Source: Cytauxzoon felis (lineage: Eukaryota > Apicomplexa > Aconoidasida > Piroplasmida > Theileriidae). From it: DNA of 49,426 bases. Numbering within the stretch: the stretch's first letter is position 1; each line of letters opens with the position of its first letter. A program made the translations under genes and the position numbers. Positions 1-49,426 of this stretch are shown in pieces. The notes under the pieces are model-generated. The model was given only the letters and a program-made list of their open reading frames with translations. It had not been told where the DNA came from and made no database searches. The stretch is from positions 1 to 49,426 of the forward strand of contig JAIQCW010000225.1 of assembly GCA_020283715.1 (NCBI GenBank), in the 5' to 3' direction.

Positions 1-62
1 TACGGTGGACTCCTGTGGAACATTGGTTGTAACCTCAGGTGGAGAACTGTCTACATGACCTA
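1..62 (-). repeat. Modular repeat, exonic end copy
   Basis: On the minus strand it reads GHVDSSPPEVTTNVP in frame with the secreted protein. The element continues beyond the window edge. Confidence 0.75.
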
Positions 63-711
63 CGGTGGATGGAACATCAACATCAGAGAATCCAAATGGA
101 CATCTTGATTTTGGTTTATCTTCAACAACAACATCAGTTGTTTTTACATGGTTGTGAATTGATTTAAATGTGTCATTGTTAGGGCTAGTATTACTATTGA
201 GATAGAGTGGACATGGGCATAGCCTGGACCATTTTTCAAAAAGGTAAATATCATGTTGTGAGAGGTCAATAAATGTAAAAATTTGCCCATTATATAGCAT
301 ATTATCAGGTAATGGTGTATTAGAGTTTAAAAGTATACAATGATTATAGAAAATATCAAATAATTTATCATCATTGATAATAACGTGCGATAATTTTGGA
401 TAAATTGTATAAAATGTTAATACATAACACCAACTTTTAATATAATTTCCATCATCATTAAGATATTCTTTATTAAAATGTGTTAATATTGACATTCCAT
501 TATTAACATTATCTATATGATCATGACATTCTACACTGTTGTACCAACTAAAGTATATCCTATCATTTACATTTGTCATGTATGGTAATTCATCTACCAA
601 ATCTTCTACATCTATACTGAAACCTACATAGTAGTTGTCATTATCATCAACTTTAGTATGACAAAAGTTCAACAATAGAAATATCCAGAAGGAGTAAATT
701 ACAACCTCCAT
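1..711 (-). CDS. Secreted protein, 3'-truncated by window edge
   Basis: The minus-strand ATG at 711-709 opens 237 codons without a stop to base 1, so the C-terminus is outside the window. The first ~20 residues are a hydrophobic signal peptide (MEVVIYSFWIFLLLNFCHT). The mature part has scattered Cys (a CPCPL motif near residue 160) and acidic stretches, with no domain I recognise. The last ~25 residues are repeat-family sequence (SSPPEVTTNVP) in the same frame seen in other coding copies. Length and composition resemble the secreted, lineage-specific proteins of Theileria, but family membership is not established. What is seen: signal peptide, open frame, repeat tail. Surface or host-exported location is inference. 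Confidence 0.75.
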   Translation of the reverse strand, partial: MEVVIYSFWIFLLLNFCHTKVDDNDNYYVGFSIDVEDLVDELPYMTNVNDRIYFSWYNSVECHDHIDNVNNGMSILTHFNKEYLNDDGNYIKSWCYVLTFYTIYPKLSHVIINDDKLFDIFYNHCILLNSNTPLPDNMLYNGQIFTFIDLSQHDIYLFEKWSRLCPCPLYLNSNTSPNNDTFKSIHNHVKTTDVVVEDKPKSRCPFGFSDVDVPSTVGHVDSSPPEVTTNVPQESTV

Positions 712-1061
712 TGAGTATCAAAGAGTAGTAAGGAGGTGAATGTTGAGGGATGTTAGAAGTTAGTGGTAGGAATTGAAATTAGAAATGTCAACTTCAAGAT
801 TCTTAAAGGTAATTATATAAATAACCTCAATCTTAAGTTGATTATAAACTGATTTAGTCTTTAATCCTAGAATAATATTTTGAAGTCGCAAGTCTCAAAA
901 CTACATTAACCTTCATCAAGTCAACTATACAATAACCTTCATGATATAATTTTAAAGTATATATAAAATACATGGGTTAAAATATATTTTATAGTGTGGT
1001 AAAATAAAATATATTGAATTTATAATAGAAATATAAGACGTTAATTCAGACCTGGAATGTG
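712..1061. other. AT-rich intergenic stretch
   Basis: 350 bp between the secreted protein start and tRNA-Glu. It holds the upstream region of the minus-strand gene. I see no ORF or repeat module. Confidence 0.6.
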
Positions 1062-1133
1062 TCCCATGTAGTCTAGGTGGTTAGGATATACGGCTCTCAC
1101 CCGTACGACCCGGGTTCGAGTCCCGGCGTGGGA
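1062..1133 (+). tRNA. tRNA-Glu (CTC)
   Basis: 72 nt cloverleaf. The acceptor stem TCCCATG pairs with CGTGGGA (one G-U), the D arm is GTCT/GGAT, the anticodon stem is TACGG/CCGTA with loop CTCTCAC (anticodon CTC), and the T arm is CCGGG-TTCGAGT-CCCGG. There is no intron and CCA is not encoded. A T-run follows immediately, as expected for a Pol III terminator. Confidence 0.97.
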
Positions 1134-1142
1134 ATTTTTTTT
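1134..1142 (+). terminator. Pol III T-run after tRNA-Glu
   Basis: AATTTTTTTT follows the last acceptor base of tRNA-Glu(CTC). Oligo-T directly 3' of a tRNA is the usual RNA polymerase III stop signal. Confidence 0.6.
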
Positions 1143-1181
1143 ATATTATTAATTAAACATATATAAATATATTTAAAATAA

Positions 1182-2999: not shown

Positions 3000-5366
3000 A
3001 TGTCGTCATTCAGAACATGGAAATCATCTTTGAGTATACCTGAAATTAATAATTTTAAGCATTTACTGACGAATTCTACTACATTTAACAATGATTTTAT
3101 CAAGTTATTATGTGAAAATTATCAATCATTGACTATAAATGAGTCAATTTTAGCTGCTAAGATATTAAATACCAACTTTGTAAATGATTACAATATAACT
3201 AAGACTAGGGGTTTATTATTGAATAATATAAGGTCTAAATTGTATTCATTATCTGATTTAATTAAATTATGTACAGTTATAAATGATGTAGTTGTTAATA
3301 AACTAATCGATAGACATTTTATTTCTGACTTTATTAGTCGTGTAGATAAACTATTACTTGACCTTACATGTATAGACATCCCACCTATTTGTATGGCATT
3401 AACTAATCTGTCTGAAGCTGGTATGTATAAAAGTTTTTTTTATTGCCCACATTTGCAGGGTATGATGTATCTTATATTTCAAAGAAGTTTATTTCAATTT
3501 TACTGTATAAAAAATTGATTTTCAAGTTAAATGATGTACAATTACTTAGTCTTGTTACATTTTATAACAATCTGAACTTGAATAATAAGCTGATGATTAA
3601 ACATCTGGGTATGTTATCAATGCTCGTTAATGATTAAATACTTTAGTACTTTACGTAAAGCAACGATTAAATGATGGGGATTTTAATATAAAATTAGCTG
3701 TAGATATTGTACAAGTATCTAAAATTCCATATATTAATTTTATTTTAATGAAATTTATTATTGAGGTATCTTTTAATTTTCCCCATTTTTTTCATACCCC
3801 AGAATAAAAAATTGATATCATTTGATTTATTATTTAAATGTTTATTGTCTTGTTGTTGCAATATTTCTATGATCGATTCTATTGATGATGATGTGAATTT
3901 GAAGTAATTTGAATACATTTTATGTAATGATTATATTTATAGCATGATTTCAATGAGTACAAGGGATAAATTGGATCTATTAAATGTTTATTGTCGTTTA
4001 AATTACAAACCCCACGAGATTTTATGTAAATTATTGATGGGGATTGAAGAAAATTTAAATGAGATTAAAGACTTTTGTACATATTCTCGATTAGTTTATG
4101 ATTTGTTTTCATTAAATTTAAACAACGATGCTATAACAATACACTGTCTCCATTTTTTTAAACATTTAAAGGGTATGTTGAAGTTTGTTCTCATGACATC
4201 TTCTACAGTACAATTTGATGCTGAGACTGTACGAGATATACCAAAGGCGTTGTTAGCCTTGGCATATTTCAACGTATTAGATATCGATATTTACAATGGC
4301 CTATTGCCAGAGGTATTGTTGATATTTAAAGCATCATATATTACCCATAGGTTATAAGGTTTGAAAATACCCTTGATATACAATCATTGAATCAATTATA
4401 TATATTAAAACATCTATTAAGGTATTTAAGTATTGTGGGGTTTAAAACACCATAATAGGATAAAATCTATAAATGTGGGGGATTTATTGGGTTTTTTATC
4501 TAATTTGGAGGGGAATGTAGTGAAGGAATCATCGAAGATAGAATTAGAGATTGGTAGAATATTTACAAGATTATCATATAATTATTATGAAAAGGTATTG
4601 TAGTGTAATATAAATATTAATATTCAGGTTAATATTGGACCATTTTATATAGATGTAATAGTACCAGTACAAGAATGTAATACAGATGATTTCAATACAA
4701 CCATTAAACAGTTTGGTATCGCAATAATCACACTAGATAATAAAGACTACTACTTCAAATCAAATGAAAGGTTTGTATCAATGTTAGATATGTTATACAT
4801 GATGTCTAATCGATGTCTGTTCCGCTCGCCGTGATGTTAATCCACCTTTCTTCGTCTTGCAGACGGCCCTCCACCCGAGGTCCATCTTTTCCATTGCATG
4901 GAGCTTCTCTATTTACTTCCCCCTTCGCTTCCCTGAGATCAGCTACGGGTATTCCACTTGAGGTCCAATCCTACTCCTTATTCCACTCGCCGTGGTGGCC
5001 TCTTCTAATTACCTATCTCTAAAGAGTATAGCCACTCCCGGAGATCGTGGCGAAGAATCCGAGACGATCCATAGGAGTCGAGGGGAAGTAAATGAGAAGA
5101 GCCTCCACGGCGAGTGGAACAGACACGGATCAGACCCATGTTGAAGGAGAGGTGATAGGCATATGAGAGATAAGGTTGGGGGTATTGATATTCGATTGAA
5201 ACTATCAAGTTGATATATTATTTATGGTAATATATATAGGAATATGAATTCGATATTGATAGAGAGTATATTGAAAATGTATGGTTATAGGTATATTATG
5301 ATACCAATAATAGATTGGTATAAAAGAATAGATAGAGAATCATATTTAAAGAATAAATTATTATAA
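3000..5366 (+). CDS. RAP-domain protein
   Basis: Ten exons: 3000-3420, 3459-3608, 3647-3765, 3803-3903, 3943-4172, 4209-4312, 4351-4421, 4459-4594, 4628-4770 and 5240-5366. Together they encode 533 aa. All introns are 33-39 nt except the last (469 nt), which carries a repeat. The body is helical and leucine-rich, as in FASTK/OPR-like proteins. The C-terminus joins the strand YYFKSNER across the long intron to LKMYGYRYIMIPIIDWYK, which matches the end of a RAP domain (Gly-Tyr-x-hydrophobic-Pro-x-x-Trp). RAP proteins in apicomplexans are mostly organellar RNA-binding proteins; a role in mitochondrial RNA or rRNA fragments is inferred. The stop codon overlaps the MCM6 stop codon on the other strand. 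Confidence 0.8.
4805..5150. repeat. Compound modular repeat in RAP-gene intron
   Basis: An inverted module A1 (4910-4945) is followed by a forward module B1 (5010-5055). The LAVVAS-type end module occurs inverted near 5100, giving an overall inverted-repeat layout inside the 469-nt intron 4771-5239. Confidence 0.8.
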
Positions 5367-8300
5367 TTCATCATCGTCATCAAATAAATCTGAATCATCT
5401 TGTAATAATGTATCATCTTGAATTACATTTTGATCTTTAGCCCATAAATGTGTAGTTGAATAATAATTTGGATGTACACGTAATCTAAATATATTTTCTT
5501 GATCATCTGTATTACGTGTAGCTAATAATTTATTATCGACATATACTAAACGATATAATATCCTCTGTAATCTTAAATTCCATAAATCAGCATCCTCTTC
5601 TGATGTCGGTATATATACATTCATCAAATACCATTCTATCAACTCATTTGATGCAACCATATCACCAATCAATTCACATTCATTCACACGATCCAATAAT
5701 ACAGCACTTATCACATCATACTCATTAGTACTTATACGCATCTCATCCAATGATACAGTCCTTGCCACTAAAAAAAAATAAATATTAATAATATCATCAA
5801 GGTCATACATCCTCTTATCTTCCAGTCACCGTTCCACCTGAGGTAGTCCTGCCGTCAGCTTCTCTATTTAGTTGTCCCTCCGCTTCCCTGAGATCAGCTA
5901 CGGGTTCTCCACTTGAGGTTCAATCACCGTTTTCGACTTCTTCATTTTACTCCCAAAATTTGAAGGAATATCATCATTTCTGGGGGAACTCATGATGATT
6001 ACTCAATGAATATTGGATGTATTTATGATGTCAATATCTCATTCAAGAGGAATTTGATGATTGTATTTAATATTCTCATCCTCACTTTATTTCAATTTAT
6101 ATTCATTGAGATATCCTTCCAAACATAGATTCCATCACTTTAGACTTATCTCGGCGAGATTAGGAATTAACCTAAGGTGGAACCTGGAAGCGATCTACGG
6201 GAGCTGGAGGGGGAAATAAATAGAAGAGCTGTCTGCAAGACAAGGTAAGGTGGATGGTAACCTCACGTAGAGGAGTATGGAATAAATGTGAATAAACATA
6301 CTTTTGTTTTCCTCATTAGTTGTACTGGCATCATCATTTTCATCTTCTTTGAATAGTGTTGATTGGTTTGTGGTACTATTATCGACATCATCGAGTATAA
6401 TATCATCTTTATTGGATAGTCTTAATAATGATGCTTTAAATATAGAATATGCTTCTTGTACATGTACTTCTTCAACGAAATCACTGAATTTAAGTCTAGC
6501 TACAGCTTCAGATAATCTAATTAATGATTCTAATTGTCTAACGGTCATTCTTAATGATCTTTTATTAGCTTGTACATCACCATTTCTTAATTCAACATAA
6601 TATTGTGATAATTTTTTTTTAGCTGAATCTTGTATAAGTGGTTTAGATCTTTTAGCTAATTCGATATATAATTTTAATTCATCAGTAGTTAATGGTGTTT
6701 GTAATTCATTATCGAATGGTACATCTTGTGAAAAATCAACTTGCCCAATGATTGATGATGATTTAAATGTACCAGGTCCATGTAAACTTGTAATATGCCA
6801 TGCTATTTTATAATCAATTTCTGGTATAGCATCATCAGTCATTGTATATAATAAATCAAATCTTGATAATAATGGTGGTGGTAAATTAACATTTGATGCA
6901 AATGATTTTGATGGATCATATCTACCATATCTTGGATTACATGCAGCAAATACTGATGCTCTAGCATTTAATGTTGCTTGTATACCAGCTTTTGATATTG
7001 ATATTGTTTGTTGTTCCATAGCTTCATGTATAGCTACTCTATCTCTTTCATTCATTTTATCAAATTCATCTATACAACATATACCTTCATCAGCATACAT
7101 TAATGCACCTGCTTCTAATATATAATCACCATTATCTGGATCTTTATGTACTGCTGCTGTTAAACCTGCTGCTGTACTACCTTTACCTGATGAAAATATA
7201 GCACGTGGGGCAAATGATTCAACAAATTTTAAAAATTGACTTTTTGCTGTACTAGGATCACCAACTATACACATATTTATATCACCCCTTAATTTACTAT
7301 TATTAGATGATTTATGTACACCACCAACCATCATTAATAATATTCCCTTCTTTATCTCATTATGACCCCATATTTTTGGTGCTATACATGATGATAATTT
7401 ATCAATAGTATCAGGTGATGTAGCTATATCACGTATCCATTGAAATCCTGGTATATTCAATATATCCTCAGCCCTTATTAAACGATCATCTAATGTTTCT
7501 GTATTAACTGTCCCCATATTTACCTTATATTGATTTATACGACGAATTTGTGTGGCTAAAAATGATAATTTATGATTCAAATCCCTAACTCCAACACCTT
7601 TAATACCAGTAATACCCTGAGTAATTAAAAATGATTCAAATCTACGAACACCATCCTTTGTAATTTTTTTAGGTATCTCACCAGGCTTCATTAATGATGG
7701 CAAATCAGGTAATACAATTAATGAACCAGATACCTCTACCCTATCACCAGCATTCAAACAATCAACCAATTTATTCCTCATAATAACCTCAATAGATGTA
7801 GGCATCGTACCATGTTCCGATTCTTGAACGATCTCCTGTATACGAATCTTCTGCCAATCACAAAAATGCGAACGCTCCATAACCAATTCCCAATCACGAA
7901 TATTCAAACATGTACTTGTTGGACACTTTAACGGGGTCGTATATTTAAATTGCTGAACAACGTCCATAACAACATTACCACATAATTTACATTTAAAAGC
8001 ACCCCTAACTAACTCCGGTCTCACATCCGAGATCCTAGTCACCTGTCCACGTATCGTTATCAACTCACCTAACATATGACATCTTATATCACGCAATCTA
8101 TAAAAAATATTAATGATGAATCAACACTTGTAGATTTGTTCATCGAGGTTTATTAACCTGAAGTCCTATCCTAATATCATTCCACTAGCCGATGCAATTG
8201 AAGTCCATCTTTTACATTGCATGGAGCTCCTCTATTTAGTTCCCCCTTCGCTTCCCTAAGATCAGCTACGGGTTCTCCACTTGAGGTCTCCACCTGATGT

Positions 8301-9082
8301 CCAGTGACTATACTTCCGCCACGATCTCTGGGAGTGGCTCTACCGTGTACGGGGAGGTAATTGGAAGAGCTGACGGCAGGATGAAGAGAGTTGGATTGGA
8401 CCTCAGGTGGGACAATATTTCTGATTATGTGGTGTGATTATCAACATACGGATAGATGATGCTGGGTGTATGTAGAAATTGTAGATAGATTTTTTTGGGT
8501 AATCTGGTTAGTGTGGTTGAGATATCATTGACTAGTATTTGTAATGTATCTTCTAAAGTATCTTGGATCCTATAGGTATATAACAAGTGTGTAGACATCA
8601 ATAAACCTTAGGAAATTTTTGATGAGGTATCTATAAAGTTGTATTGATAGATTTAATGGTGTATCAATTTCAATTGGTTTCCAATTTATAATATGATCAA
8701 GATGTACTGGTAATACTTCAGCTGTATTAGATTCTTTGATGATTAATTTATATAATTTCTTCATATAATATAATTCTTGTGTAATATCACCATCTACATG
8801 ATAAATTTCATTAACAGCTGCCTCTTCATCATCATCGTCATAGTCATCATCCATATCCATCATATATAAATCATCACGATGTATATATGATTTTATAAAA
8901 TAATCAAATACTCGTGCTATATTAGCATCTTGTACATTCGGTGTATCTTCATCATTAATATCTAAATCACTTAATGATTGATTATGTTGTAGTTGACTCA
9001 TACTTTGACTATGCAAAGTATTCTCACCAACTGGCACACCCTCTGTAACCGGTCTATCACCGGTATTAGATGTCGCGTCCAT
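5361..9082 (-). CDS. MCM6: DNA replication licensing factor MCM6
   Basis: Exons 9082-8607, 8569-8450, 8097-6302 and 5767-5361 encode 932 aa. The N-terminal zinc finger has Cys235, 238, 257 and 262 (CKLC, CPTSTC). The sequence around it (VTRISDVRPELV, QQFKYTTP, DWQKIRIQE) is MCM6-type rather than MCM7. AAA+ motifs: Walker A GDPSTAKS at 478-485, Walker B CIDEFD at 540-545, and arginine finger SRFDL at 610-614. NKRSLRMTVRQLESLIRLSE and the C-terminal winged-helix-like exon complete the subunit. It is one of the six subunits of the MCM2-7 replicative helicase in the nucleus. Two of its three introns (352 and 534 nt) carry repeats; the other is 37 nt. Confidence 0.95.
5828..6262. repeat. G-type element in MCM6 intron (copy G1)
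   Basis: Inverted module A1 (5860-5915), AT-rich core G (about 5942-6150, ending in ATCTCGGCGAGAT), then forward module A2 (6180-6230). The flanking ends CCTGCCGTCAGCT and AGCTGTCTGCAAGAC form the inverted terminal parts. Confidence 0.8.
8158..8432 (-). repeat. Modular repeat in MCM6 intron
   Basis: Sense to MCM6. On the minus strand a B2-type hairpin (CCGT-AC-ACGG) precedes a spacer and module A1, ending with the APCNGK-type end module (AGCTCCATGCAATG). Confidence 0.8.
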
Positions 9083-10065: not shown

Positions 10066-10401
10066 TTCCACAAAATGTACATCTATTGGTTAGTTTAATA
10101 TCATTGCGATTGATAAAAAATTTTTTATAATACAAAAGTTAACACTAAAAGATAATCACATAAACATTATTTATTTATTTAAATTGGAATTTTCAAAATG
10201 TGTATGCATTTAAATGGTTAAACTGCTAGGTCATTACTCAATATGCCTTTAGACCCCCCATAGGCAATTATAAAATTGAACATTAACCTGGATAACCAAC
10301 TGATAAATTATAATATTTGATGACCTACAAATTAATTATATTTAATTCCATATTTTTATTTAACCATAAAATAATAGACATTTAAAATTATTAGAAAAAA
10401 T
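10066..10401. other. AT-rich intergenic stretch
   Basis: Between the unknown small gene and tRNA-Glu(TTC). There is no ORF or repeat module that I can support. It includes the upstream region of the minus-strand gene and the 3' flank of the tRNA, with a T-run on the tRNA strand. Confidence 0.5.
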
Positions 10402-10473
10402 TCCCACGCCGGGACTCGAACCCGGGTCGTTCGGGTGAAAGCCGAATATCCTAACCACCTAGACTACATGGGA
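10402..10473 (-). tRNA. tRNA-Glu (TTC)
   Basis: 72 nt cloverleaf with the same acceptor, D and T arms as the CTC isoacceptor at 1062-1133. The anticodon stem-loop is TTCGG-CTTTCAC-CCGAA (anticodon TTC). Relative to the CTC gene the second stem pair is swapped (A-T to T-A), so the difference is compensatory. An A-run on the plus strand just 3' of it serves as a Pol III T-run. Confidence 0.97.
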
Positions 10474-17527: not shown

Positions 17528-17690
17528 TATTCCATCTGAGATGCATATAAATCTTGTTCCACCTGAGGTTACAAGCATCTCTTCCCATCTGAGGTCGTCC
17601 TGCCGTCAGCTTCTCTATTTACTTATCCCTCCGCTTCCCTGAGATCAGCTGCGGGTATTCCACTTCCACATGAGGTCATGTACTCTAATA
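17528..17690 (-). repeat. Modular repeat, intergenic fragment
   Basis: Inverted A1 with a PAAD variant (CCCGCAGCTGATCTCAGGG on the minus strand), bounded by several CCACCTGAGGTT-type end modules. It lies 3' of the TFIIIC-like gene. Confidence 0.8.
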
Positions 17691-29447: not shown

Positions 29448-29460
29448 TCACAATATAATC

Positions 29461-36201: not shown

Positions 36202-36249
36202 AATCAACATCATATCAACACGTATCAAATACTAACTCAACCTCTAACA

Positions 36250-36810
36250 TTCTTCCACCAGTCACTCCATTTGAGGTACACTCGAAGTCCGATACTACTC
36301 TCCTTCCACTCGCGGTTCCACCCGAGGTCGTCTTGCAGACAGCTCTCCACCTGAGGTCTTTCCACTAGCGTGGCGCCTCTCCTATTTATCTCCCATTCCA
36401 GCTCCCATAGATCGCTTCCAGGTCCACTCGGGGTCTCCACCTGAGGTTATAATTCATATTTTCACTTCCTCATCTTACCCTCAATTTTTGAAGGAAAACC
36501 TGAATTTCTGGGGAAACTCATGAAGATTGTGGAATGACTATTTAATGAAATTTATATCTCAATACTTCATTGAAGAGGAATTTGATGATTGTATTAACTT
36601 TAATAACCCTCACTTCATTCCATTTTACATTCATTGAGATATCCCCTTTAACATGAATTCCGTCACTTTAGTCTTATCTAGCCGAGATTAGATTTATAAC
36701 CTCAAGCGGAACCTGGAAGCGATCTACGGGAGCTGGAAGGGGAGGTAAATAGAACAGCTGACGGCAGGATTGACCTCAAGTGGAGAATCTGTCTGCAAGA
36801 CGAAGGAAAG
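36250..36810. repeat. G-type element, intergenic (copy G6)
   Basis: Inverted A2 variant (36390-36425), G core forward (about 36455-36702), forward A2 (36710-36755), ADGRI and VCKT ends. It lies downstream of the DnaJ gene. Confidence 0.85.
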
Positions 36811-37368: not shown

Positions 37369-40300
37369 ATGTCATTACCGCGTTGTTTAACGCGAGATTT
37401 TTTTACTAATTTGGCTGATTCAATTAGTAATGCTACAGATCAATATTTCCAGGATGTACATGAATCACCAACTACAATTAAACTTTTATGTCTACAACAA
37501 TCTTGTATTGCTGATAATAAATTTCTGTATGTTTGAATGAATTATTATAAATTTTATTAAAAAATTTATTATAGTATCGAAACTTTGGATGGAACAGTAC
37601 CCATTGAATATAAACACACATGTCTAGCACTAGTACCACCCACTGCCGATGGAGATAGACAGCTTGTAGGAAAAGTTATTAGTTTTAATCAATATAAAAT
37701 AGCACCAACAAAGTAAATCATACAAAAGAAACTATTCATCAATCATACAGATCAAGATATCTTATTGTACTCACGAGGATAACTATCATACCAGGAGATT
37801 ATAGACACCTCATCGGACATCTAGTACCTGCACTCATCTATCATCCAGTAAGTACATTGTCTATTATAACTCTATATCCAATATACCCACATATTACAAC
37901 CACCGATCCACTCACATCCTCTCTTCCTCTCACAGATAGCTATCCACCTGAGGTCAGTCCTGCCGTCAGCTCTTTTAATTATCTATCTCTAAAGAGTAGA
38001 GCCACTCCCAGAGATCGTGGCGAAGGTAATGATTGGACCTCATGTGGATTACCCGTAGCTGATCTCAGGGAAGCGAAGGGGGAAGTAAATAGAGAAGCTG
38101 ACGGCAGGAAGACCTCAAGTGGAGAAGCTCCATGCAATGGGAAATATGGATCTCAGTTAGTGATAGTGACAGATTGTGAAATGATAGATCTCAGATGTAG
38201 AAATTGTTTTACATGTTATTTTACAGAGATTGGCTGTGCCTCAGAATGTACAGAGTCATCCGTAAGTTTAAATTATTTAGTGTTGAATAATTTTCTATTA
38301 GTGGTGATGTTAAGGTTGAAGCTCCAAATATAATGAGTGGACCTATAAGGAAGCCACAAGAAAATTTAAGAAATGTAAAAAATGTAATGACACCTTATAA
38401 TTCGAAACAAAGTTCAAAGAAACAAGAATTGTCTCCTGTAAGAATATGTGATTTAACATTGTATACGCCTAAATGGTTAATAAGAGCACGTGTGGTTCAT
38501 AAGTATGTTGAATGACCTTTCATAAATAATCCTTCAATTATAGATCGGAAATTCGTAAATTTAATAACCAAAGAGGTGAAAATCAACTTTTTTCTATTGA
38601 TTTATGTGATGTCAACGTTCGTTTAATCAATATTCATCAATTTATATCCTGTAGGGCGAAATTAGAGCTGTCTTCTTCGGAGAAGCCGTCACCAAATGGT
38701 ATACATTTCTAGAAGAAGGACAAGTAAGTATCATAAATATTATTACCTACACTTGAGGTCCTATCTCCCTCTTCTTCATCTCGCCGTTCCATCTCTGTTC
38801 GTCTTCATACAGCTCTTCTCCACCCGATGTCCATCTTTTCCACTGCATGGAGCTTCTCTATTTACCTCCCCCTCCGCTTCCCTGAGATCAGCTACGGGTC
38901 CTCCACTTCCACCTGAGGTTACAATCACTAACCTCTTCACAGCCACGATCTCTGGGAGTGGCCTTACTCTTTAGAGATAATTAAATAGAAGAGGCACCAC
39001 GCCTAGTGGCAACAGCAGGATGGACCTCTAGTGGAAAGGAGATGGATTGGACCCCATATGGATTCGGTATGGATATATATATATATATATATTATAGGTG
39101 TATTCTATAAGTGGTGGTCAATTGAAGCCATCGAATAAAAAGTTTAATACATTGAAACATTCATGTGAGATGATATTGGATGAAAATTCTCATATTCAAT
39201 TATTTCAAAATGATGAATCGATACCATCAATGTGCTGTTCTTTTACCCCATTAAAACAGATAGATAATGTTAATATTGGTGAGACGGTTGATGTATTAGC
39301 AGTTGTTGTTAGGGCAAAGGATATTCAAAATATTCAATCAAAGGTTGATTTTTCTGTGGATGATTTAATGATGTATATATAGGGTGGTAATACTGTTGAT
39401 AAAAGAGATTTATTATTATGTGATACATCTGGGGCTACAATATGGTTAACTGTGTGGGGTGCTAATAGTCAAGTTCTTAGTAAACAAGAGAATCCAAATC
39501 CTATACTATGTTTCAAAGGTATGTATATATACATCAGATTTAATAAATATAATTAGGTGTAAGAGTTGGTAATTGGCAAGGTAGAAAACTTGATTCGCAA
39601 AATGGTACACATGTAATTGTCGAACCTATAATACCAGAAGCACTAGAGCTACGAAAATGGTGGAATGAGGTACGCATATAAACATAAGATGTCCTATTTT
39701 ACCAACACTTTCAATATCAATTCCATCCGATGTCTAATCACCCTCTCTTCATCTTCCACCTGAGGTCCTTTCCTTGTCTTGCAGACAGCTCTTCTATTTA
39801 CTTCCCCCTCAAACTCCCGTAGATCGTTCTCGGGTTCCACTTGAGGTCCAATGACTATACTTTGGCCACGGTCTCTGGGAGTGGCATTACCGTTTACGGG
39901 GAAGTAATTGGAAGAGCTGACGGCAGGACAAGGTGATGCCTATTGGACCTCGAGTGGGAAGAGAGTTATACTAATTTTCTCATTTGATATTATATTTTTT
40001 AGAATTCTCATACTGTTAATTTGGATCCGGATTTTGAGAAGCCTACGGACGAGTCATCTAATGAACTGCTCACTTTGTCTAACATTATATCATTAACAAA
40101 TCAGGCATTACAATTTAAATGTACGTTTAATATTAGATGTCACATGACTATTAAAATTTATCTTTAGCTATTGATTCTAGTGGAATGAGTTTCACTACAC
40201 GTGGCCTTATTGAAATGATTAGAGATACGAACTTTTCATGGCCGTAAGTTGAATACCCCACTTTGTAGGGTTAAAATTTTAAAAAATTGCACCATAATTT

Positions 40301-41128
40301 ACTTTTATAGTGCATGTCCTAATTGTAAAAAGAAGATGATAAATAAAGAGGCTAATGTATGGAATTGTACTCGATGTGATGCTAATTCTGATCCAATACA
40401 TTCTTATATATTATCAATGAAAATAGTAGATGATACCTCACATATTTGGGCCACTGCATTAACAAATGTCGCACAAGAAATCATGAACGGTATACCCGCA
40501 AGCAGTCTTGTACAACTTTCCGAATCCGGAGGAATGGATGCACACGGTAGAAGCTTCTCCAATATTTTCGATGACGCTCGACTCAATGTTTGTTGATTTC
40601 CACTTGAGGTCTTTCCACTAGGCGTGGTGCCTCATCTATTTACTTCCCCTTCCGCTTCCCATAGATCAGCTACGGGTTCCACTCGAGGTATAGTACTACT
40701 CTTCATTCCACTTGAGGTTATATCCAATACATCCTTAGCACCATCTTCCATCATTCCCATGATGGATGATCCATCACTACCCTCACCACGATCTCTGGGA
40801 GTGGCTATACTCTTTAGAGATAGGTAATTGGAAGAGGCCTCCACGGCGAGTGGAAAGACCCCAGGTGGAGAAGAGTATGACTGGATACCGGCAGAGTACA
40901 CCTCAGTCATTTCATACTGGATCATATGTATAATATAGGAGTTTGTATTTAAGGTTCGTGCTACGGTTGAAAATTTTATGGACGAGCCAAAGATTAAATA
41001 TGTGAGTTTGATTATAGTGTTTATTAAATTATGTTTAGAGGGTAACGAAGGCGACGCCTATTTTTAAAGAGTTGAATTATAATATTGAGAATCGTATTAA
41101 TAATATCAAGAAAATGTTAGCTGTATAA
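37369..41128 (+). CDS. RPA1: Replication protein A large subunit (RPA1)
   Basis: Fifteen exons: 37369-37526, 37575-37712, 37751-37847, 38227-38261, 38302-38502, 38544-38616, 38655-38723, 39098-39343, 39383-39518, 39557-39669, 40003-40120, 40168-40243, 40311-40587, 40954-41001 and 41039-41128. They give 624 aa, in phase at every junction. An N-terminal OB fold is present. DBD-A starts at SPVRICDLTLYTPKWLIRAR and includes GEIRAVFFGEAVTKWY. DBD-B includes GETVDVLAVVV, KRDLLLCDTSGATIWLTVWG. DBD-C has a Cys4 zinc ribbon (CPNC, CTRCDA). It binds single-stranded DNA in replication and repair. Four introns (333-379 nt) carry repeats, one sense and three antisense; the rest are 37-66 nt. Confidence 0.95.
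37905..38145 (+). repeat. Modular repeat in RPA1 intron 3
   Basis: Sense. SYPPEVSPAVSSFNYLSLKS (B1), RATPRDRG, a spacer, [20 protein letters not shown] (A1), APCNGK end module. The canonical frame is open throughout although intronic. Confidence 0.88.
38745..39065 (-). repeat. Modular repeat in RPA1 intron 7
   Basis: Antisense. Inverted A1 near 38870-38900, spacer, then inverted B1 near 38940-38980, with GCACCACGCCTAGTGG and TTCCACTGCATGGAGCT ends. A short TA dinucleotide run (39075-39090) precedes the acceptor. Confidence 0.85.
39725..39960 (-). repeat. Modular repeat in RPA1 intron 10
   Basis: Antisense. Inverted A3 (PENDLREFEG on the minus strand) and inverted B2 (hairpin CCGT-TT-ACGG near 39890-39900). 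Confidence 0.85.
40595..40885 (-). repeat. Modular repeat in RPA1 intron 13
   Basis: Antisense. On the minus strand: [20 protein letters not shown] (B1), module F, RVEPVADLWEAEGEVNR (A1 with R to W). It begins 8 bp after the donor, one of the tightest placements. Confidence 0.88.
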
Positions 41129-41223
41129 AACAATATTGTATATTAAATATAACAAATAATTTCATATACATCTTTCAATTTATACATGAAGAGAAGGAAG
41201 GATCTCAAATGGGGTACATGGGG

Positions 41224-42840
41224 TTATTTATCCCCATATACCCAATATAAATAAATTGTGGTGTTATCCGACATCAAATACCCATCGCCTACGAACATTG
41301 TAATAGCCATTGTAAATAGAAATAAAAAATTATTAACCATTCCCACATGTCCATTATATGCTATCTGGTCCTTAGGTGTACCATCAGCTTGACCATTATC
41401 GGTAACTGCCTTCCTATTGCTTTGTTTTCCTGCGGCTGAGAAGCCTACAATCTCTAAAATTTCCTGCCAGAAATTGAAGGATACACAAATGGCTTGTAAT
41501 AGTCGAGGTCTACTATGGAGAAATGTTGAGACTAGTCCATCAGGGAAGTGTATCATGGTGATGAAGATGTGTAGACATAGGACATAAGGTACGGCTGCTA
41601 TCCAGAAGCAATTCCATTCAGGTTTATCATACCAATTGTCACCATCATATCCATCTTTACTACCTGGACCATGCCCTGATTCATCTAATATACCAATCAC
41701 CAGCGTCGGTATGGCAGAAATAAATTGAATATAGAAATCTGTATTATTAGCATCCTCAACATCCATTAATTGATAGGGCGTTATTGCAGGGTAGAAAGCA
41801 TAGACTGTTCCTAGAGATATCGAGAGCATTAAAATAGGAGACCAATGGGACCACGCCTGTTTAGCATTATTATTATTAGCATCAACTTTTTGACCAGTTG
41901 TAGGATTTCGTATTAAACCGAATAATTCTCCAATGGATGAATTGTTTGGTATAACTGCACCGGCTTCTGAACCAACACTATTATATTTGTTTCCAAGTTG
42001 GAATATTTGGTCCATGGTCCACCATGATGCTGTGATAAATTGAATTAACATGGTGGAGATGATTAATAATTTAACGAATGTGTAATCATAATCTTCCCAA
42101 TTGAATTTATTGGACAAAAATCTGCAACAGTTGTGGAAGAGGAAAGTGAAGAATCCAGAGAGAGGTAGACCAACGGCATATATAGCCGCATTAACATTGA
42201 CACCGAAGGAGAATGAAGAGTAGATACCATTAGCAAATGCCATAATTATAACGCTCCAATAGAATTGGCCCAAGTATCCATAATCATCGCCGGAAATGAA
42301 GAAGATGAATGTGAAGATGCTTGTGATAAACATCACCCATCCACATATAATGGATGCAACCCTCTTACAATTAGTTATAACAGCGTCCTCATGACTACCT
42401 TTAACGCCTGTAATAAATTCCCATGCTGAATCAGCCCAACGTGGAGCTAGTGTCTCTCTTACTTTTTGGTTTTCTGCAATTGCAGTGAATAACACTGCGG
42501 ATAATAAAACTTGCATAACGGTTCCAACAAAACTAGCTAATTCCATTGGGTTGTGTATTTTATAAATGAATAATGGTACAACAGATGGTGGTAAATGGAA
42601 TCGCTTAACGAGATGAGGAGCACATAAGACAGCAATCCTGTGCGGCGTTAACATAATAAATCCAGTGAGGAACATGGCTAATTTGTGACGAAATACGGCT
42701 TCCTTTTCAGCACCTGCATCTTGGAACTTGTAAGTATTCAAATATACTGGTGTATTGAATGGCATTTTTTCTCCTACTTTTACTAATATCCGTTCATTAT
42801 TCCAAATTATCCTCCTACCATTATTTAAAGGGTTAATATC
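41224..42840 (-). CDS. Tpr-like multi-pass membrane protein, copy 2
   Basis: The open frame runs from 42858 to 41224. No ATG opens it, and a CAG acceptor-like site ends at 42841, so a 5' exon is likely spliced on. The first internal ATG is at 42762. About ten hydrophobic segments are visible. The N-terminal block AVFRHKLAMFLTGFIMLTPH and HLPPSVVPLFIYKIHNPMEL is repeated almost identically in the adjacent copy. The overall layout and tandem duplication suggest the Theileria Tpr family, integral membrane proteins of unknown function. A transporter of the equilibrative type is an alternative. It ends 95 bp from RPA1 in convergent orientation. Confidence 0.7.
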   Translation of the reverse strand, partial: DINPLNNGRRIIWNNERILVKVGEKMPFNTPVYLNTYKFQDAGAEKEAVFRHKLAMFLTGFIMLTPHRIAVLCAPHLVKRFHLPPSVVPLFIYKIHNPMELASFVGTVMQVLLSAVLFTAIAENQKVRETLAPRWADSAWEFITGVKGSHEDAVITNCKRVASIICGWVMFITSIFTFIFFISGDDYGYLGQFYWSVIIMAFANGIYSSFSFGVNVNAAIYAVGLPLSGFFTFLFHNCCRFLSNKFNWEDYDYTFVKLLIISTMLIQFITASWWTMDQIFQLGNKYNSVGSEAGAVIPNNSSIGELFGLIRNPTTGQKVDANNNNAKQAWSHWSPILMLSISLGTVYAFYPAITPYQLMDVEDANNTDFYIQFISAIPTLVIGILDESGHGPGSKDGYDGDNWYDKPEWNCFWIAAVPYVLCLHIFITMIHFPDGLVSTFLHSRPRLLQAICVSFNFWQEILEIVGFSAAGKQSNRKAVTDNGQADGTPKDQIAYNGHVGMVNNFLFLFTMAITMFVGDGYLMSDNTTIYLYWVYGDK

Positions 42841-42874
42841 CTGAAATGTACCAAACACTACCTTATACCTTTCC

Positions 42875-43085
42875 TTGTCTTGCAGACAGCTCTTCTATTT
42901 ATCTCACCTTCCAGCTCCCATAGATCGCTTCCAAGCATTCCACTCGAGGTCAATAACTACCTTCTTCATCCCACGATCTCCGGGAGTGGTTATACTCTTT
43001 AGAGATAGGTAATTGGAAGAGGCTCCACGCCTAGTGGGAAAAGAGGTTGTTGTAACCTCAAGTGGAGAGCTGTCTACAGGACGAA
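42875..43085 (-). repeat. Modular repeat at Tpr copy boundary
   Basis: Minus strand: [36 protein letters not shown] (B1), then an A2 variant (GGAAGCGATCTATGGGAGCT) and AVCKT end. The first half is in the canonical frame with the Tpr copy 1 reading frame. Confidence 0.85.
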
Positions 43086-43941
43086 TAAAATCTGCCCTAC
43101 CTACTGTGGAATGGAGGAGGAATAGAGAATTAATGTATGGAATACGAGAAATCCAAACAATTAAATGCCAATACCATCTATTACCTTCGGGAGAATTACT
43201 ATTACTATTCCAATTCCTTGCCTTTGTAGGAGCAGCTTTATCTTCAGTTGTATGATTACCTATACCCTCAAGTTTCTTTATCGCTTTATTTAGTATATCT
43301 TTGGCTGTAGTTGCGGCAGCACCAGTAGAATCAAGACCGCCTATAGCTGTAGTAATAGAATCTCTAGCATCCTCAGCTTTGGATTTAGCTTCGGTAGCTG
43401 TGGTTTGCTGACTAACTTCATCAAGTTTATCATTAATATTATTTTTATACTGACTGCCTTCTGTCCATTGATTTTGACCATTCTGCCAAACAGCATTATT
43501 ATCTAGTGTAGCATCTTCATCGTTGTTAACTAATATCCCATAATTCCATGGGCCTGCTCAGCTGAAGAGCATGACCCATATGAATATACAGGATAACACT
43601 CTTTTACTCTTGGATTTAGCTGTTGCCTGTCCACCAGGATCTTCTTGTGGAGCGCATTTATCTATTATTAACGTCATTATTGTCGATAATAACTGTCCTA
43701 TGAAACTGGCCAACTCCATTGGATTATGGACCTTGTAGATAAATAACGGGACGACTGATGGCGGTAGGTGAAATCTCGCAACTACATGATTGGCACATAA
43801 TATAGCGATACGATGAGGCGTAAGCATAATTAGACCAGCTAAAAACATGGATAACTTATGACGGAATACAGCTTGAGGTTTAGCATCATCACCAGTCCAT
43901 TTATTTAGATCCCATGGATCCAATCCTTCAATGAATGACAT
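42905..43941 (-). pseudogene. Truncated Tpr-like copy 1 with in-frame TGA
   Basis: Starts MSFIEGLDPWDLNKW at 43941 and shares the block AVFRHKLSMFLAGLIMLTPH and MELASFIG with copy 2. After about 127 codons a TGA (43560-43558) interrupts it. The same frame then stays open through an Ala-rich hydrophilic loop and one hydrophobic segment (YWHLIVWISRIPYINSLFL). It runs into a mobile repeat and stops at a TGA near 42904. Several central membrane segments of copy 2 are absent, so an internal deletion is inferred. It may be a pseudogene, a donor cassette for recombination, or two exons of a truncated gene. Confidence 0.6.
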
Positions 43942-45590: not shown

Positions 45591-47262
45591 ATGGGAAGAA
45601 GACCCGCTAGATGCTACAGATATTGTAAAAATAAACCATACCCTAAATCCAGATTCTGCAGAGGTATACCCGACCCCAAAATTAGGATCTATGATATGGG
45701 ATACAAAGGAGCTGATGTGAATGAATTCCCATATGTTGTTCACATTGTCTCTGGAGAATATGAACAAATCTCATCAGAAGCACTCGAAGCCGCACGTATA
45801 TGTGCCAATAAAGTATGTTTAATTCCAAGACATAATAAATGTCCAACAATTTATATGCCAACAAGTTTCCATACGATATATACATTCTCTACCATCTTGC
45901 AGAGAGATATTTACTCGAGGTCCTTTCTTTCCACTCGCCGTGGAGGCTTCCTTTATTTACTTCCCCCTCCGCTTCCCTGAGATCAGCTACGGGTGAAAAT
46001 GTCAACCCCTAAGAACAGAGAGTCTACCCGGAGGAACGAAGATATTACAACCCGGAAGAACATATCTCCATCTGATGTTACAACCTCTTCTTCCACTCGC
46101 CGTGGTGGCTCTTCCAATTACCTATCTCTAAAGAGTATAGCCACTCCCGGAGATCGTGGCGAGGTTAGATGGAAGTGGAATGAAGAATAGTATTGCTCAA
46201 GTGGAGACCTCGAGTGGAACCTGGAAGCGATCTCAGGGAAGCGGAGGGGGAAGTAAATAAAGGAAGCCTCCACGGCGAGTGGAAAGAAAGGACCTAGGTG
46301 GAACTACATTATATATACTTGTTGCTATATAGTGGATTGTTGATAACTTCATATACATATACATTACAGTTTATGGTGAAGGCTGGTGGTAAGGAATCAT
46401 TTCATATTAGAGTTCGTGTACACCCATTCCATGTATTGCGTATTAATAAGATGCTTTCATGTGCTGGTGCTGATAGACTCCAAACCGGTATGAGAAGAGC
46501 TTTTGGTAAACCTACTGGTGTTGTTGCCAGAGTTAATATTGGTCAAGTACTCATGTCGATCAGAACTAGGGTATGTTAATTCATATAATATAAATTACAT
46601 GACCGAAATATTCTATACCAGTACCCTATAATAATGATTGAACTACCTGAAGTCATTGTCTTCTACTCCACCTTTTCTCGTCTTGCAGACAGCTTTTCTA
46701 TTTACTTCCCCCTCAAGTTCCCAGAGATCACTTTCGGGTTCCACTTGAGGTCATGTTGTTTGTACCTTCATATAATGGATTATGGGGATTATTATCATTA
46801 TAGTGCTTTTTACCCCCATAACCCCATTATTGCCACGATCTCCGGGAGTGGCCTTCCTCATTAGAGATAGATAAATAGAGAAGCTGTCTGCAAGACGGCC
46901 TCAAGTGGAGGCGAGTGGAAGAAGAGTTATAGAATAGAATTGTATTGTTAACCTAACCTCCGTTGATTACTTTTGATTTATAAATAATATTATAGGAATC
47001 GTTATTACCGAAGGCTATAGAGGCATTTAGGAGAGCGAAGTATAAATTTCCGGGTAGACAGAAGATATTTATTTCAAATAATTGGGGTTTTACCCCATTT
47101 TCGAAAGAAGATTATCTTAAATATCAATCAGATGGTAGATTAGAGAATAAGGGTGTTCATGTAAAATGGATATCATCTCATGGTCCATTGTCGAAGATAT
47201 TTCCCAATGCTTCTACCATTAATGTTCCACTCGATGAAGCCATTGTATCACCAAAATCCTGA
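45591..47262 (+). CDS. RPL10: Cytosolic 60S ribosomal protein uL16 (RPL10)
   Basis: Exons 45591-45812, 46370-46570 and 46996-47262 give 229 aa. The start [20 protein letters not shown] is diagnostic. Further matches: [14 protein letters not shown] joined to [55 protein letters not shown], and [15 protein letters not shown]. It sits near the peptidyl-transferase centre and the tRNA corridor. Both introns (557 and 425 nt) contain repeats; there is no short intron. The tail beyond the [12 protein letters not shown] segment is slightly longer than in animals. The REI1-like gene in this window acts in the same 60S maturation route, but they are 16 kb apart and no operon-like link is implied. Confidence 0.96.
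45895..46305 (+). repeat. Double modular repeat in RPL10 intron 1
   Basis: An inverted A1 (45955-45995) is followed by a forward block. The block reads [20 protein letters not shown] (B1), GDRG, a spacer, and an A2/A1 hybrid (CTGGAAGCGATCTCAGGGAA), which joins the left half of A2 to the right half of A1. Confidence 0.88.
46660..46930 (-). repeat. Modular repeat in RPL10 intron 2
   Basis: Antisense. An inverted A variant reads [10 protein letters not shown] on the minus strand. An H-type AT hairpin with GTGCTTTTTACCCCC follows (46777-46830). Then comes an inverted B with stem CTCT-AAT-GAGG. Confidence 0.85.
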
Positions 47263-47309
47263 CCTCTACTAATAAATTAGTCTCAACCCTGCATATATAC
47301 ATGATATAT

Positions 47310-47790
47310 ATTCACTCGAGTTCCAATCCCACTCTAGACATTATCTATCTTCGTCTCCAACCTTGTCATTCCACTCGCCGTGGAGGCTTCTCTATTTAGT
47401 TGTCCCTCCGCTTCCCTGAGATCAGCTGTGGGCATTCCATTTGAGGTTACATCCTACTCCCTTTGTCTTGCAGACAGCCTCCTTTATTTACTTCCCCCTC
47501 CGCTTCCCTGAGATCAGCTACGGGTATTCCACTTGAGGTCTCCACCTGAGGTCCAATAACTACCATCTCACTGCCACGATCTCCGGGAGTGGCTATACTC
47601 TTTAGAGATAGGTAATTGGAAGAGCTCTCTGCAGGAGAACGCGAGGTGAAGTAGAAGTAAGAGGATTGTACCTCGGTGTAAGAGCTGTCTGCAAGACGAC
47701 CTACGGTAGGGGTAACCCCTGGTGGAGAGCTGTCTACAAGACCAACGCTGGTAGTAACCTCGGGTGGAAAAGATAGTGATTGGACGTCGG
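47310..47790 (-). repeat. Modular repeat cluster, intergenic
   Basis: Two inverted A1 blocks (47395-47430 and 47485-47520) and an inverted B1 (47570-47620), followed by a run of five or more short end modules (LADSS, VDSSPPGV and similar). The minus strand is open for 126 codons, but I regard this as repeat sequence, not a gene. Confidence 0.85.
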
Positions 47791-47800
47791 GTAGAAGAGT

Positions 47801-48265
47801 GTCTATTGATGATAGTGCTTGGTACATTAATATTGTTCATACTACATCAATTAATGGGGGTAATAATTTAAGTTTAAAAATGTAAGGCGAATGGTTATTC
47901 TATTGCTTAGGAATGTAAGGTAGGATCGTAATGGTCATTGTTATACATGTTAATGTAGTGTAGTTGATTATGTGGGAAATTTCTAAAAATTGATGCTTTG
48001 GGAATGTAGTGCCATCAATATTGATGTATTTTTTTATATTTATATATTTTATGTTAATTTTTTTAAAATAAACATTTTTCAATGTTGATATATAATCACA
48101 CATTAATTTTTAATATTTGTTAAATGTTTACACATTCTTCATTATTTTATTGTGGGTATAGCATGTGCAGGTGTGCTTAGTCATTTTTATTCCTTATATT
48201 AAAAAAAAATTTATATATATAATTAGCAATGTATTTTAAATTGTAGTACATGTAGGATATAGATA
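47801..48265. other. AT-rich region upstream of FAINT-like gene
   Basis: 465 bp, very AT-rich, with no repeat module or supported ORF. It likely holds the promoter of the secreted protein gene. Confidence 0.45.
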
Positions 48266-49021
48266 ATGAGTATAATTTTATTATTATTATATTTGAATAG
48301 TATAGTGGTATTAGGTAATGATAATTATACACTTGATATAAATGATTATAGTAATAATATATTAAGGCATGATTATAGTAAAATAGGTGTAATTAAATCA
48401 TTATATTTACCAAGAGATGGTATAATTATTAAAAAAGTAGTAGATGATAATATTATAATATGGGAGAATGATGATACAGAATATGTAACATTTGCTACTG
48501 TATATAAAAATGAAGAACATTCAAAATTAATAGCATTAAGATTATTATTAAATGATATGATTTTATTTAAATATTTTTATTTTAAAGATAATAATTTATA
48601 TGAAATTAATAATTATGAACATAATCTAAAATTAATAGATATGTTATCATTACCTACCCTAGATATTACATGTGGATTAGAAGATGTACCTAATAATAGA
48701 ATTATAACACCATTTGGTAATACAATAAATATCTATACACCTTCATGTACAATTAATACTATAACCGAAAATGGTCATGTTATCTGGAAAAGAACAGATG
48801 ATTTTGAAATTGTATATCGCATTATTACACATTCTAGATTAGGTCAATTAAAACTATTATATATTGAAACTAATTTAAATGATACATGTTATTATTATAA
48901 AGTACATGATCTCAATTGGGTCATAATACACATTGAAGAATATACGAAAATCAGTGCTGATATTGTTAGCGAAACAAAACCTGTTGAAAATTTTCAACAA
49001 TTTCAAGAGATTGCTGTGTAA
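48266..49021 (+). CDS. Secreted FAINT (DUF529)-like protein
   Basis: 251 aa, intronless. Signal peptide MSIILLLLYLNSIVVLG. Two similar units follow: SLYLPRDGIIIKKVVDDNII-WE with a hydrophobic strand pattern (about residues 45-115), and IYTPSCTINTITENGHVIWK onward (about 155-220). Each has the aromatic/Val pattern and the IW motif seen in FAINT domains. FAINT proteins are secreted into the host cell by Theileria and related piroplasms; functions are mostly unknown. Recognition is by pattern and moderate. It has no repeat modules, unlike the flanking genes. Confidence 0.6.
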   Translation: MSIILLLLYLNSIVVLGNDNYTLDINDYSNNILRHDYSKIGVIKSLYLPRDGIIIKKVVDDNIIIWENDDTEYVTFATVYKNEEHSKLIALRLLLNDMILFKYFYFKDNNLYEINNYEHNLKLIDMLSLPTLDITCGLEDVPNNRIITPFGNTINIYTPSCTINTITENGHVIWKRTDDFEIVYRIITHSRLGQLKLLYIETNLNDTCYYYKVHDLNWVIIHIEEYTKISADIVSETKPVENFQQFQEIAV

Positions 49022-49104
49022 AATATTAAATTAATGTAGTATAAATTACAATATTTGTAATGTATTATCTAAATTCATTATATATGTTACTTTAAAAATT
49101 TTTT

Positions 49105-49425
49105 CTATAATCTCTTCCACCATGGTGTAGTTATACGTATAGAATTCACATTGTCATCACTCATCTCAGGTATAGTAGTAGTTGGTACAATAATATTGTT
49201 ATAATTATCCTCCTCAGATAAACACTCAGATGCCCTCTTCCATTTTTCATGCAAAATATTTTTAATACGTCTATTATTCAATGTAAATGAACCAACTTCA
49301 TTTTTTACACCAGAAGTACAATCACTATTTTCTACACTCGATGTTCCACCAGAGGTCCTTCCACTGGGCGTGGTGCCTCTCCTATTTACTTCCCCCTCCG
49401 CTTCCCTGAGATCAGCTTCGGGTTT
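49105..49425 (-). CDS. C-terminal part of unknown protein with repeat-derived segment
   Basis: The 5' part is outside the window; 106 codons end at TAG (49107-49105). The first ~40 residues are repeat modules in the canonical frame ([30 protein letters not shown]). Non-repeat sequence follows: NNRRIKNILHEKWKRASECL, an Asn/acidic stretch and the end ITTPWWKRL. I do not recognise the family. The continuing open frame and codon use after the repeat support a real C-terminal exon. Confidence 0.6.
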   Translation of the reverse strand, partial: KPEADLREAEGEVNRRGTTPSGRTSGGTSSVENSDCTSGVKNEVGSFTLNNRRIKNILHEKWKRASECLSEEDNYNNIIVPTTTIPEMSDDNVNSIRITTPWWKRL

Positions 49426-49426
49426 T
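49330..49426 (-). repeat. Modular repeat, exonic, cut by window edge
   Basis: Minus strand: module A1 ([16 protein letters not shown]), then the GGCACCACGCCCAGTGG end module and ACCTCTGGTGGA. It is in frame with the partial coding sequence. Confidence 0.8.

Follow-up and report, generated by a model that had tools for sequence, protein, structure and literature searches.

The described systems that most resemble the repeats reported here appear to be the GC clusters of yeast mitochondria and the palindromic elements of Rickettsia. The repeats were found in a 49,426-nucleotide contig of Cytauxzoon felis, a tick-borne parasite of cats (contig JAIQCW010000225.1 of assembly GCA_020283715.1, analyzed at its full length and called the window below), where hairpin-rich modules recur at 31 loci. 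They are probably a lineage-specific, non-autonomous mobile family of the Cytauxzoon line, built as head-to-head, outward-pointing hairpin arrays with module shuffling.

Yeast mitochondrial GC clusters, GC42 and its relatives among them, are described as GC-rich interspersed palindromes of constrained structure, with module merger and shuffling and an unsettled mode of amplification (PMC4478555). The C. felis family is like them in these features. Its GC-rich palindromic modules stand in AT-rich DNA (51.7% G+C in element DNA versus 29.5% outside), and merger and shuffling are apparent in four-gamete column pairs, haplotype diversity and independent end-hairpin types. It differs in not being mitochondrial (the window holds the nuclear genes MCM6 and REI1), in its head-to-head, unlike halves, in a median span of 258 bp for complete elements, and in its thousands of copies. 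GC42, as described in the accessible text of the same paper, is 42 nt long, has a putative AG target duplication and gathers its changes in the loops, whereas the C. felis family has a conserved core loop and covarying stems, and its elements showed no target duplication. The palindromic elements of Rickettsia are about 150 bp long, and many of them lie in frame in unrelated proteins; they are bacterial, fall into ten families and account for 44 insertions in R. conorii (PMC10969869). In-frame insertion into coding genes is also seen in C. felis (23 elements in 19 open reading frames, ORFs, with two of the elements in the antigen gene cf76), but here the elements are modular, number about 3,500 by estimate, and lie in open frames with flanks of coding length in 23 of 103 sampled complete copies. 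No sequence relation to a bacterial family was detected: a search for the exact A stem-loop described below, which diverged relatives would escape, found one stretch in prokaryote contigs, at chance level (about 0.2 expected, by estimate), and none in viral contigs. A prokaryotic or viral reservoir was rejected on this result.

Hairpin-forming repeats of sponge mitochondria show a similar recurrent invasion by repetitive hairpin elements (PMC2800124); they belong to organelle DNA, and the accessible text of that paper makes no mention of a head-to-head grammar. Miniature inverted-repeat transposable elements (MITEs) share with the C. felis family a short length, no visible gene of their own, an inverted end motif and high copy number. 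They differ in having a target-site duplication and a matching transposase, neither of which was found here, and the internal hairpins of the C. felis elements are not mirrored between the ends. Bacterial hairpins of the REP/BIME and IS200/IS605 types are recognized as single strands. Unlike these, the C. felis elements carry hairpins in both halves, on opposite strands, and the Y1 transposase domain had no match in the genome. The family offers a nuclear, countable model for hairpin-based mobility, which has long been puzzling in the palindromes of organelles and bacteria.

A 2022 survey of 64 apicomplexan genomes, in which genomes free of transposable elements were scanned for transposable-element protein domains, reported no such elements in C. 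felis (PMC9141347). According to the accessible text, no DNA-transposon genes were present in any of the 64 genomes, all MITE candidates were dropped as likely false positives, and RepBase held one unknown T. parva repeat (PMC9141347). In contrast to the survey's result, about one ninth of a 200-kb C. felis sample consists of one apparently undescribed family. The words "repeat" and "motif" are absent from the accessible text of a C. felis protein-array paper (PMC6310948), and no paper describing a C. felis hairpin repeat was found by title and abstract in a search that left most subscription papers outside it. The initial annotation of the window had stated that no piroplasm repeat of this kind was known to it, which agrees with the papers that could be searched and with the survey.

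Architecture and abundance of the elements

Each half-element, read outward from the centre, consists of a core stem-loop with the loop GATCTNNGGGA, a purine-rich tail (GTAATTRGAAGAG after the A core, GTAAATAGAGAAG after the B core), one small hairpin and the end motif E, which reads TCCACYTGAGGT in one sense and ACCTCARGTGGA in the other. Extra hairpin-plus-E cassettes are optional beyond the first E, the B module has an additional E on its inner side, and the small hairpins are of at least six interchangeable types.

The genome scanned comprises 8.62 Mb in 181 contigs, of which the window is contig C130; the published assembly has 361 contigs, 9.1 Mb and 31.8% G+C (PMC3748084). The core loop has 7,145 genome-wide matches versus 14 with the reversed control pattern, and the end motif ACCTCARGTGG has 6,918 versus 1 in the control, so both counts are far beyond chance. 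The estimated family size follows from the 7,145 loops, taking two loops per element. Layout and structure were analyzed in a 249-kb sample made up of the window and twenty 10-kb stretches, the latter all cut at round coordinates from contigs already known to carry an element. The window has 58 exact core loops and the twenty stretches have 164, a density of 0.82 per kb as compared to 0.83 per kb genome-wide. Element clusters cover 17.8% of the window and 11.1% of the twenty stretches. Two of the stretches (L038 and L039), both from contig C85, contain no exact core loop; this contig has an element elsewhere.

In the 249 kb, 147 clusters were reduced to 121 by joining facing halves, and 103 of these were complete, showing both directions and at least one A or B token. 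In the window, where half-elements facing each other within 450 bp were joined, the token scan and self-comparison gave 31 loci, including two half-elements and one element cut by the window end. This bears out the approximate number of loci given in the initial annotation, and the fixed module order that it described proved stricter than claimed. Left-pointing modules are followed by right-pointing modules in 75 of the 76 two-sided clusters among the 147 unjoined ones, the sole exception being a cluster with a further, separate left half behind it. After joining, the proportion is 100 of 103, but the former figure is the fairer one because the joining rule itself favors the left-then-right order.

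The pairing of modules is also restricted. Among layouts with two exact loops, A stands opposite B1 or B2 in 53 and opposite an unclassified partner in 7, a B-type module stands opposite a B-type or unclassified module in 21, and one is a same-direction pair. A was never found opposite A in these layouts, and the exact A-A pattern occurs at 6 sites in the whole genome. Pairs of B1 or B2 with B2 (n = 12) are spaced 278–324 bases apart, with an AT-rich centre, F, between them where inspected. Other centre modules also occur between the halves. One of these, X, is a perfect CCATCAT-GGGA-ATGATGG hairpin; the others are of a TTCTTCCGGGTTAACA type and a CCCCATAA..TTATGGGG type. Examples of these centres lie at 45997–46060 and 46750–46830 of the window and in the sampled stretches L033, L037 and L047.

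Conserved pairing and probable exchange of modules

Pairing around the core loop was assessed in 307 of 355 loops (one mismatch allowed, tail required). The 3-bp inner stem is fully paired, with G-T allowed, in 227 of the 307 units; sliding the partner by 1–3 positions leaves no more than 6 paired. Nine Watson-Crick versions of this stem are present, seen 88, 72, 37, 8, 6, 4, 2, 1 and 1 times. At its three positions, read on the outward strand, G.T combinations outnumber A.C combinations by 44 to 23 (two-sided p = 0.014, a rough value because the copies are related).

The A unit was analyzed in the 79 of 115 tail-anchored units that share one register. Its second stem is paired in 77 of the 79, versus 39.4 expected by shuffling and 0 for slides of 1–2, and occurs as CTC/GAG, CCG/CGG and CCC/GGG. 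The two highest linkage values (r2 of 1.0 and 0.94) belong to the base-paired columns of this stem. Five other values of at least 0.5 all fall within the same hairpin block, and 69 of the 91 column pairs are below 0.1. All four gametes are found in 65 of the 91 column pairs, and the 79 units represent 72 haplotypes. The core stem-loop columns are nearly invariant, adjoining columns vary, and singleton bases are rare (0.5–0.7% per site). The combination of rare singletons and extensive reassortment suggests that the family spread recently or that conversion is ongoing. A rival explanation is that each copy is under selection and its free sites mutate recurrently.

Small hairpins were scored in 254 of the 307 units. 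Of the 254, 173 have a hairpin of 4 bp or more after the tail, as compared to 33 of 254 in shuffled controls. The first and last bases of the hairpin loop are G and A, respectively, in 139 of the 173, and T and C in 4. G..A loops are stable closures in both DNA and RNA. When 80 of the 307 units were folded as RNA, folding energy was lower on the outward strand than on the other strand in 64.

Elements within introns and reading frames

The REI1 ORF (28303–29295, + strand; C2H2, PF12756) contains element 17 (28750–29089, A-X-B), which is in frame and separates the zinc-finger part from the EWED motif. At this one locus, compared between species at the protein level, the inserted stretch is absent in 7 of 7 aligned homologues, from T. 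annulata, T. equi, T. orientalis, three Babesia and one other. The initial annotation had named modules at orthologous sites in distant piroplasms as a sign of old, immobile sequence; at REI1 no such sharing is seen. Next to the element stretch, however, the C. felis protein carries an N-rich addition as well.

The MCM6 gene (5370–9082, - strand) has elements in two of its introns. Intron 8449–8098 (352 bp) holds element 4 (8214–8410, B-A), with its right E at 8400–8410; an extra "t" token that the scan assigned to this element, to 8489, falls in an exon. Intron 6301–5768 (534 bp) holds element 3 (5834–6241, of the B-F-B type). Both introns have ordinary splice sites outside the element (GTATGT.. 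and poly-T-AG), which for intron 6301–5768 are the flanks GTATGTT..TTTTTTTTTAG. The exon preceding intron 8449–8098 is present in T. annulata and T. equi and missing from the annotated T. parva protein, a pattern in relatives which suggests, from sequence comparison, that the intron is older than its element. As a separate matter, the stretch lacking from the T. parva annotation is 40 residues long and forms a separate exon in T. annulata, T. equi and C. felis; its omission is probably a gene-model error.

The occurrence of elements in both introns and exons, noted initially, is therefore supported by MCM6, by REI1 and by the open-frame copies. At least one frame is open through 40 of the 103 complete elements, and none is open in the other 63. 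In 23 elements, lying in 19 ORFs, the open frame continues for at least 25 codons on each side, and by inspection all 23 are in one orientation and one frame. These in-frame copies add about 30–150 residues to their host proteins, and thus annotation is affected. Besides element 17, examples in the window are element 5 (10995–11182, A-B), in frame in an ORF with a HUN (ubinuclein/HPC2) domain; elements 7 (13433–13724) and 8 (14477–14792), both A-X-B and both in frame in ORF 12878–15118; and element 22 (37944–38140, A-B), in an open frame of 211 codons. Pfam searches of 18 of the 19 element-bearing ORFs (L044:9540–9998 was left out) gave four with domains above the cut-off (zf-C2H2_2, HUN, zf-MIZ and RRM_1) and 14 without a domain. 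In all four the element lies outside the domain.

Two copies within the cf76 antigen

A published cf76 primer has a single exact match in the genome, and the ORF at that match includes the database cf76 protein without a residue changed, which identifies the genome as that of C. felis. Two in-frame elements, at residues 179–272 and 583–657, make up 169 of its 723 residues. Two published internal primers, used on cDNA (PMC3748084), match within the first element, which indicates that this element is kept in the mRNA. An assembly or contamination artefact, raised as a concern in the initial annotation, is very unlikely given these primers and the two copies in the published cf76 of the reference isolate.

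A 30-bp tandem repeat in the C-terminal part of cf76 was reported to occur twice in ten of eleven samples and once in one (PMC3748084). In the last 225 codons only one tandem repeat of 24–39 bp was found, a hairpin-plus-E cassette of 33 bp. The sample-variable unit of about 30 bp is probably this cassette, and since no other tandem repeat was found in this part of the gene, cassette number probably varies between C. felis isolates at cf76. High antibody levels were reported against the C-terminal region (PMC3748084), in which one of the two elements falls. Related element peptides are encoded across other ORFs as well, so antibodies to this region may not necessarily be cf76-specific, which affects serology with this vaccine candidate. 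A 141-residue element peptide searched against 5.77 billion proteins gave one match, cf76, among 1,194 candidates limited by length and shared words.

Ends of the elements and RNA-type signals

Both outer ends are formed by E, an inverted motif of about 12 bp, in 40 of the 103 complete elements, and the tests of flanks and target duplications were made on these 40. The base just outside CCAC is T in 93%, and the base just outside GTGG is A in 78%; beyond about one more base, nothing in the flanks is strongly fixed. The small hairpins of the two ends are of the same type in 14 of 74 elements versus 16.3 expected. They are thus independent, and terminal inverted repeats that include the small hairpins were rejected. 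Of the complementary outer ends reported initially, the inverted end motif stands, for the 40 elements, and complementarity of the small hairpins is no more frequent than chance.

In the window, Rfam returned only two tRNAs at gathering scores, and no match at E values up to 1 in the 12380–14850 segment. B-box-like matches in the window number 15 versus 8 expected. Three perfect ones lie outside elements; none was found inside the window elements, where the matches carry a mismatch (the A box was unscanned). The third perfect match, GGTTCGAGTCC at 24275–24285 (- strand), was not called as a tRNA by ARAGORN. No A-rich or simple 3' tail was seen by eye in the window listing. A short interspersed nuclear element (SINE) was rejected on the lack of a perfect B box in the elements and of an A-rich tail.

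Interpretation and alternative explanations

The copies occupy many unrelated sites, and they act like inserted DNA of one lineage, copying whole and exchanging parts, although movement itself is something that we infer. The strict outward polarity, the unlike halves and the strand-specific loops suggest that the folded outward strands are recognized at both ends. In such a process the outward strand of each half would fold as single-stranded DNA or RNA, and a trans-acting factor would recognize the fold. Whole elements would insert at other sites, and E and the other modules that copies have in common may be where recombination, gene conversion or template switching swaps modules between them. 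A copy in coding DNA would persist only in a stop-free orientation and frame.

Several observations weigh against a mobile family of this kind. The search for a partner enzyme covered six mobile-element families, two of them of the DDE type (DDE_3 and rve). No genome match was found to rve, tyrosine recombinase, Y1 transposase or DDE_3, for all of which the controls matched; the Helitron-like N domain (PF14214) gave none either, but its control matched nowhere, so that this result is uninformative. RVT_1 matched only in a 1,010-codon ORF that also carries a telomerase RNA-binding domain. Checks for target-site duplications, proposed in the initial annotation, and for paralogous empty sites both came out negative: the 40 elements show no target-site duplication and no excess of shared flank k-mers for k = 3–8 (seen versus expected, 2 versus 1.1 at k = 4, 1 versus 0.2 at k = 5 and 0 versus 0.1 at k = 6), and 115 flank queries gave no such empty site in the available sequence, the sole junction-spanning match being a self-overlap. 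No whole-element presence or absence differences between isolates were seen, and no near-identical long copies were found, the best other match to a 311-bp element, among the matches listed, being 92% over about 224 bases. Shared variants of the A unit could partly be recurrent mutation rather than exchange, and the rarity of singletons fits recent copies and equally constraint or conversion. As RNA, the units fold no better than dinucleotide shuffles do (mean z of -0.02 outward and -0.14 inward in the 80 units), and therefore short stems are conserved rather than overall stability. In two exonic elements there is, in addition, an antisense frame that has at least 21 open codons on each side. 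Finally, successive hairpins of one arm are of the same type more rarely than expected (9 of 91 versus 18.7), an avoidance that does not fit simple tandem duplication.

The initial annotation had described the family as non-autonomous and MITE-like. Dispersal, the empty REI1 site in all seven homologues, the inverted ends and the lack of a recognized partner enzyme agree with this; the target duplication, the end hairpins and the one-strand loops do not. That the elements are MITEs in the proper sense, deletion derivatives of a cut-and-paste DNA transposon whose transposase binds the TCCACYTGAGGT ends and uses the hairpins as subterminal sites, is unlikely. The inverted motif with its T and A preference just outside CCAC and GTGG, the short median span, the head-to-head polarity and the distinct left and right halves would all suit such an origin. 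However, membership fails on target duplication, neither of the two DDE-type families searched had a match, the survey found no DNA-transposon genes in 64 genomes (PMC9141347, accessible text), and E is outermost on both sides in fewer than half of the complete elements. Unrelated end hairpin modules and covarying hairpins whose loops are meaningful on one strand only also argue against a plain MITE. It is still less probable that the copies are RNA-mediated, a structured RNA being reverse transcribed and then inserted, a route that has been suggested for the yeast GC clusters (PMC4478555). The G..A loops, the tolerance of G.T over A.C, the lower folding energy of the outward strand and the retention of elements in cf76 cDNA (PMC3748084) are consistent with an RNA intermediate, but the sole reverse transcriptase match is the telomerase-domain ORF, any one transcript has only one half in the folding orientation, and folding z is about 0. 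The absence of an A-rich tail by eye, of perfect B boxes within elements and of an Rfam match points the same way.

Repeats that serve the host (as origins, matrix or regulatory sites) and are kept alike by selection and gene conversion, without being selfish, are about as improbable as RNA-mediated copies. The nearly invariant core columns of A beside variable neighbors, and the few singleton bases, could be read in this way, whereas in-frame copies in many unrelated ORFs, the missing stretch in the seven REI1 homologues and the two loop-free stretches among the twenty sampled argue against it. Introner elements, i.e. insertions that supply their own splice sites (CTGAG^GT ... CTCAG^GTGG, in either orientation), are a very remote prospect even though both ends look splice-site-like in either orientation. 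When the DNA from E to E was removed, 12 of 509 pairings gave in-phase joins between frames of at least 50 codons, versus 51 and 50 in shifted controls, where several pairings per element were counted and in-frame exonic copies raise the controls. This result, together with the two MCM6 introns, whose splice sites lie outside the element, led to rejection of the introner hypothesis, and the cf76 copy is in addition retained in cDNA. Least credible of all is a protein repeat family, in which exon duplication would have multiplied a coding domain. The 23 open-frame copies share one orientation and frame as such a family would, but no frame is open through 63 of the 103 complete copies, and the two copies inside MCM6 introns already contradict it.

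A bolder version of the mobile family of the Cytauxzoon line would make it a new class of eukaryotic nuclear mobile DNA, in which hairpin-plus-end-motif cassettes in head-to-head arrays are recognized as folded single strands, and not by the base sequence of their stems, by a mover that either has no known relative or is a host repair or replication enzyme. This is possible but doubtful. If it were true, a phylum said to have no DNA transposons would host such mobile DNA. As a by-product, related peptides would have been written into hundreds of proteins (extrapolated from the 23 in 249 kb), including the surface antigen cf76.

Remaining elements and neighboring genes of the window

All 31 elements were taken from the token scan, which assigns them no strand. 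The first two illustrate the module order in full. Element 1 (2028–2321) reads E< h2< t< B2< E< / >A >u >h3 >E >h6 >E >h1 >E, and element 2 (4820–5119), with two left units, reads h3< h1< E< h5< t< B1< E< h3< u< A< / >h3. The A-B layout is shared by elements 10 (18746–18993), 11 (19682–19923), 12 (20498–20735), 20 (35269–35514) and 28 (46091–46284), and the A-X-B layout is found in element 15 (25629–25907). B-A layouts are those of elements 16 (27153–27440), 23 (38749–39034), 24 (39756–39957), 26 (42877–43065) and 29 (46680–46908), the last with a CCCCATAA-type centre, as well as element 9 (17559–18153), in which two half-clusters are joined across a long AT-rich centre. Element 25 (40600–40868) is B-X-A, and element 30 (47369–47767) is B-B-A with a doubled left unit. 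The B-F-B elements are 13 (22192–22651), 18 (29490–30037), 19 (32960–33369) and 21 (36267–36801), and element 6 (12399–12865) is of the same type. Elements 14 (25404–25487) and 27 (45894–45987) are left halves only (B), and element 31 (49346–49426) is cut by the window end.

Other genes of the window include a multi-pass membrane protein without a Pfam match (41224–43557), transporter-like by eye, and a cathepsin-propeptide-like cysteine protease gene (31179–32745), for which the I29 match is below the cut-off. Two tRNA-Glu genes, at 1062–1134 (+ strand, anticodon CTC) and 10401–10473 (- strand, anticodon TTC), sit in an 88-base inverted repeat that is 94% complementary.

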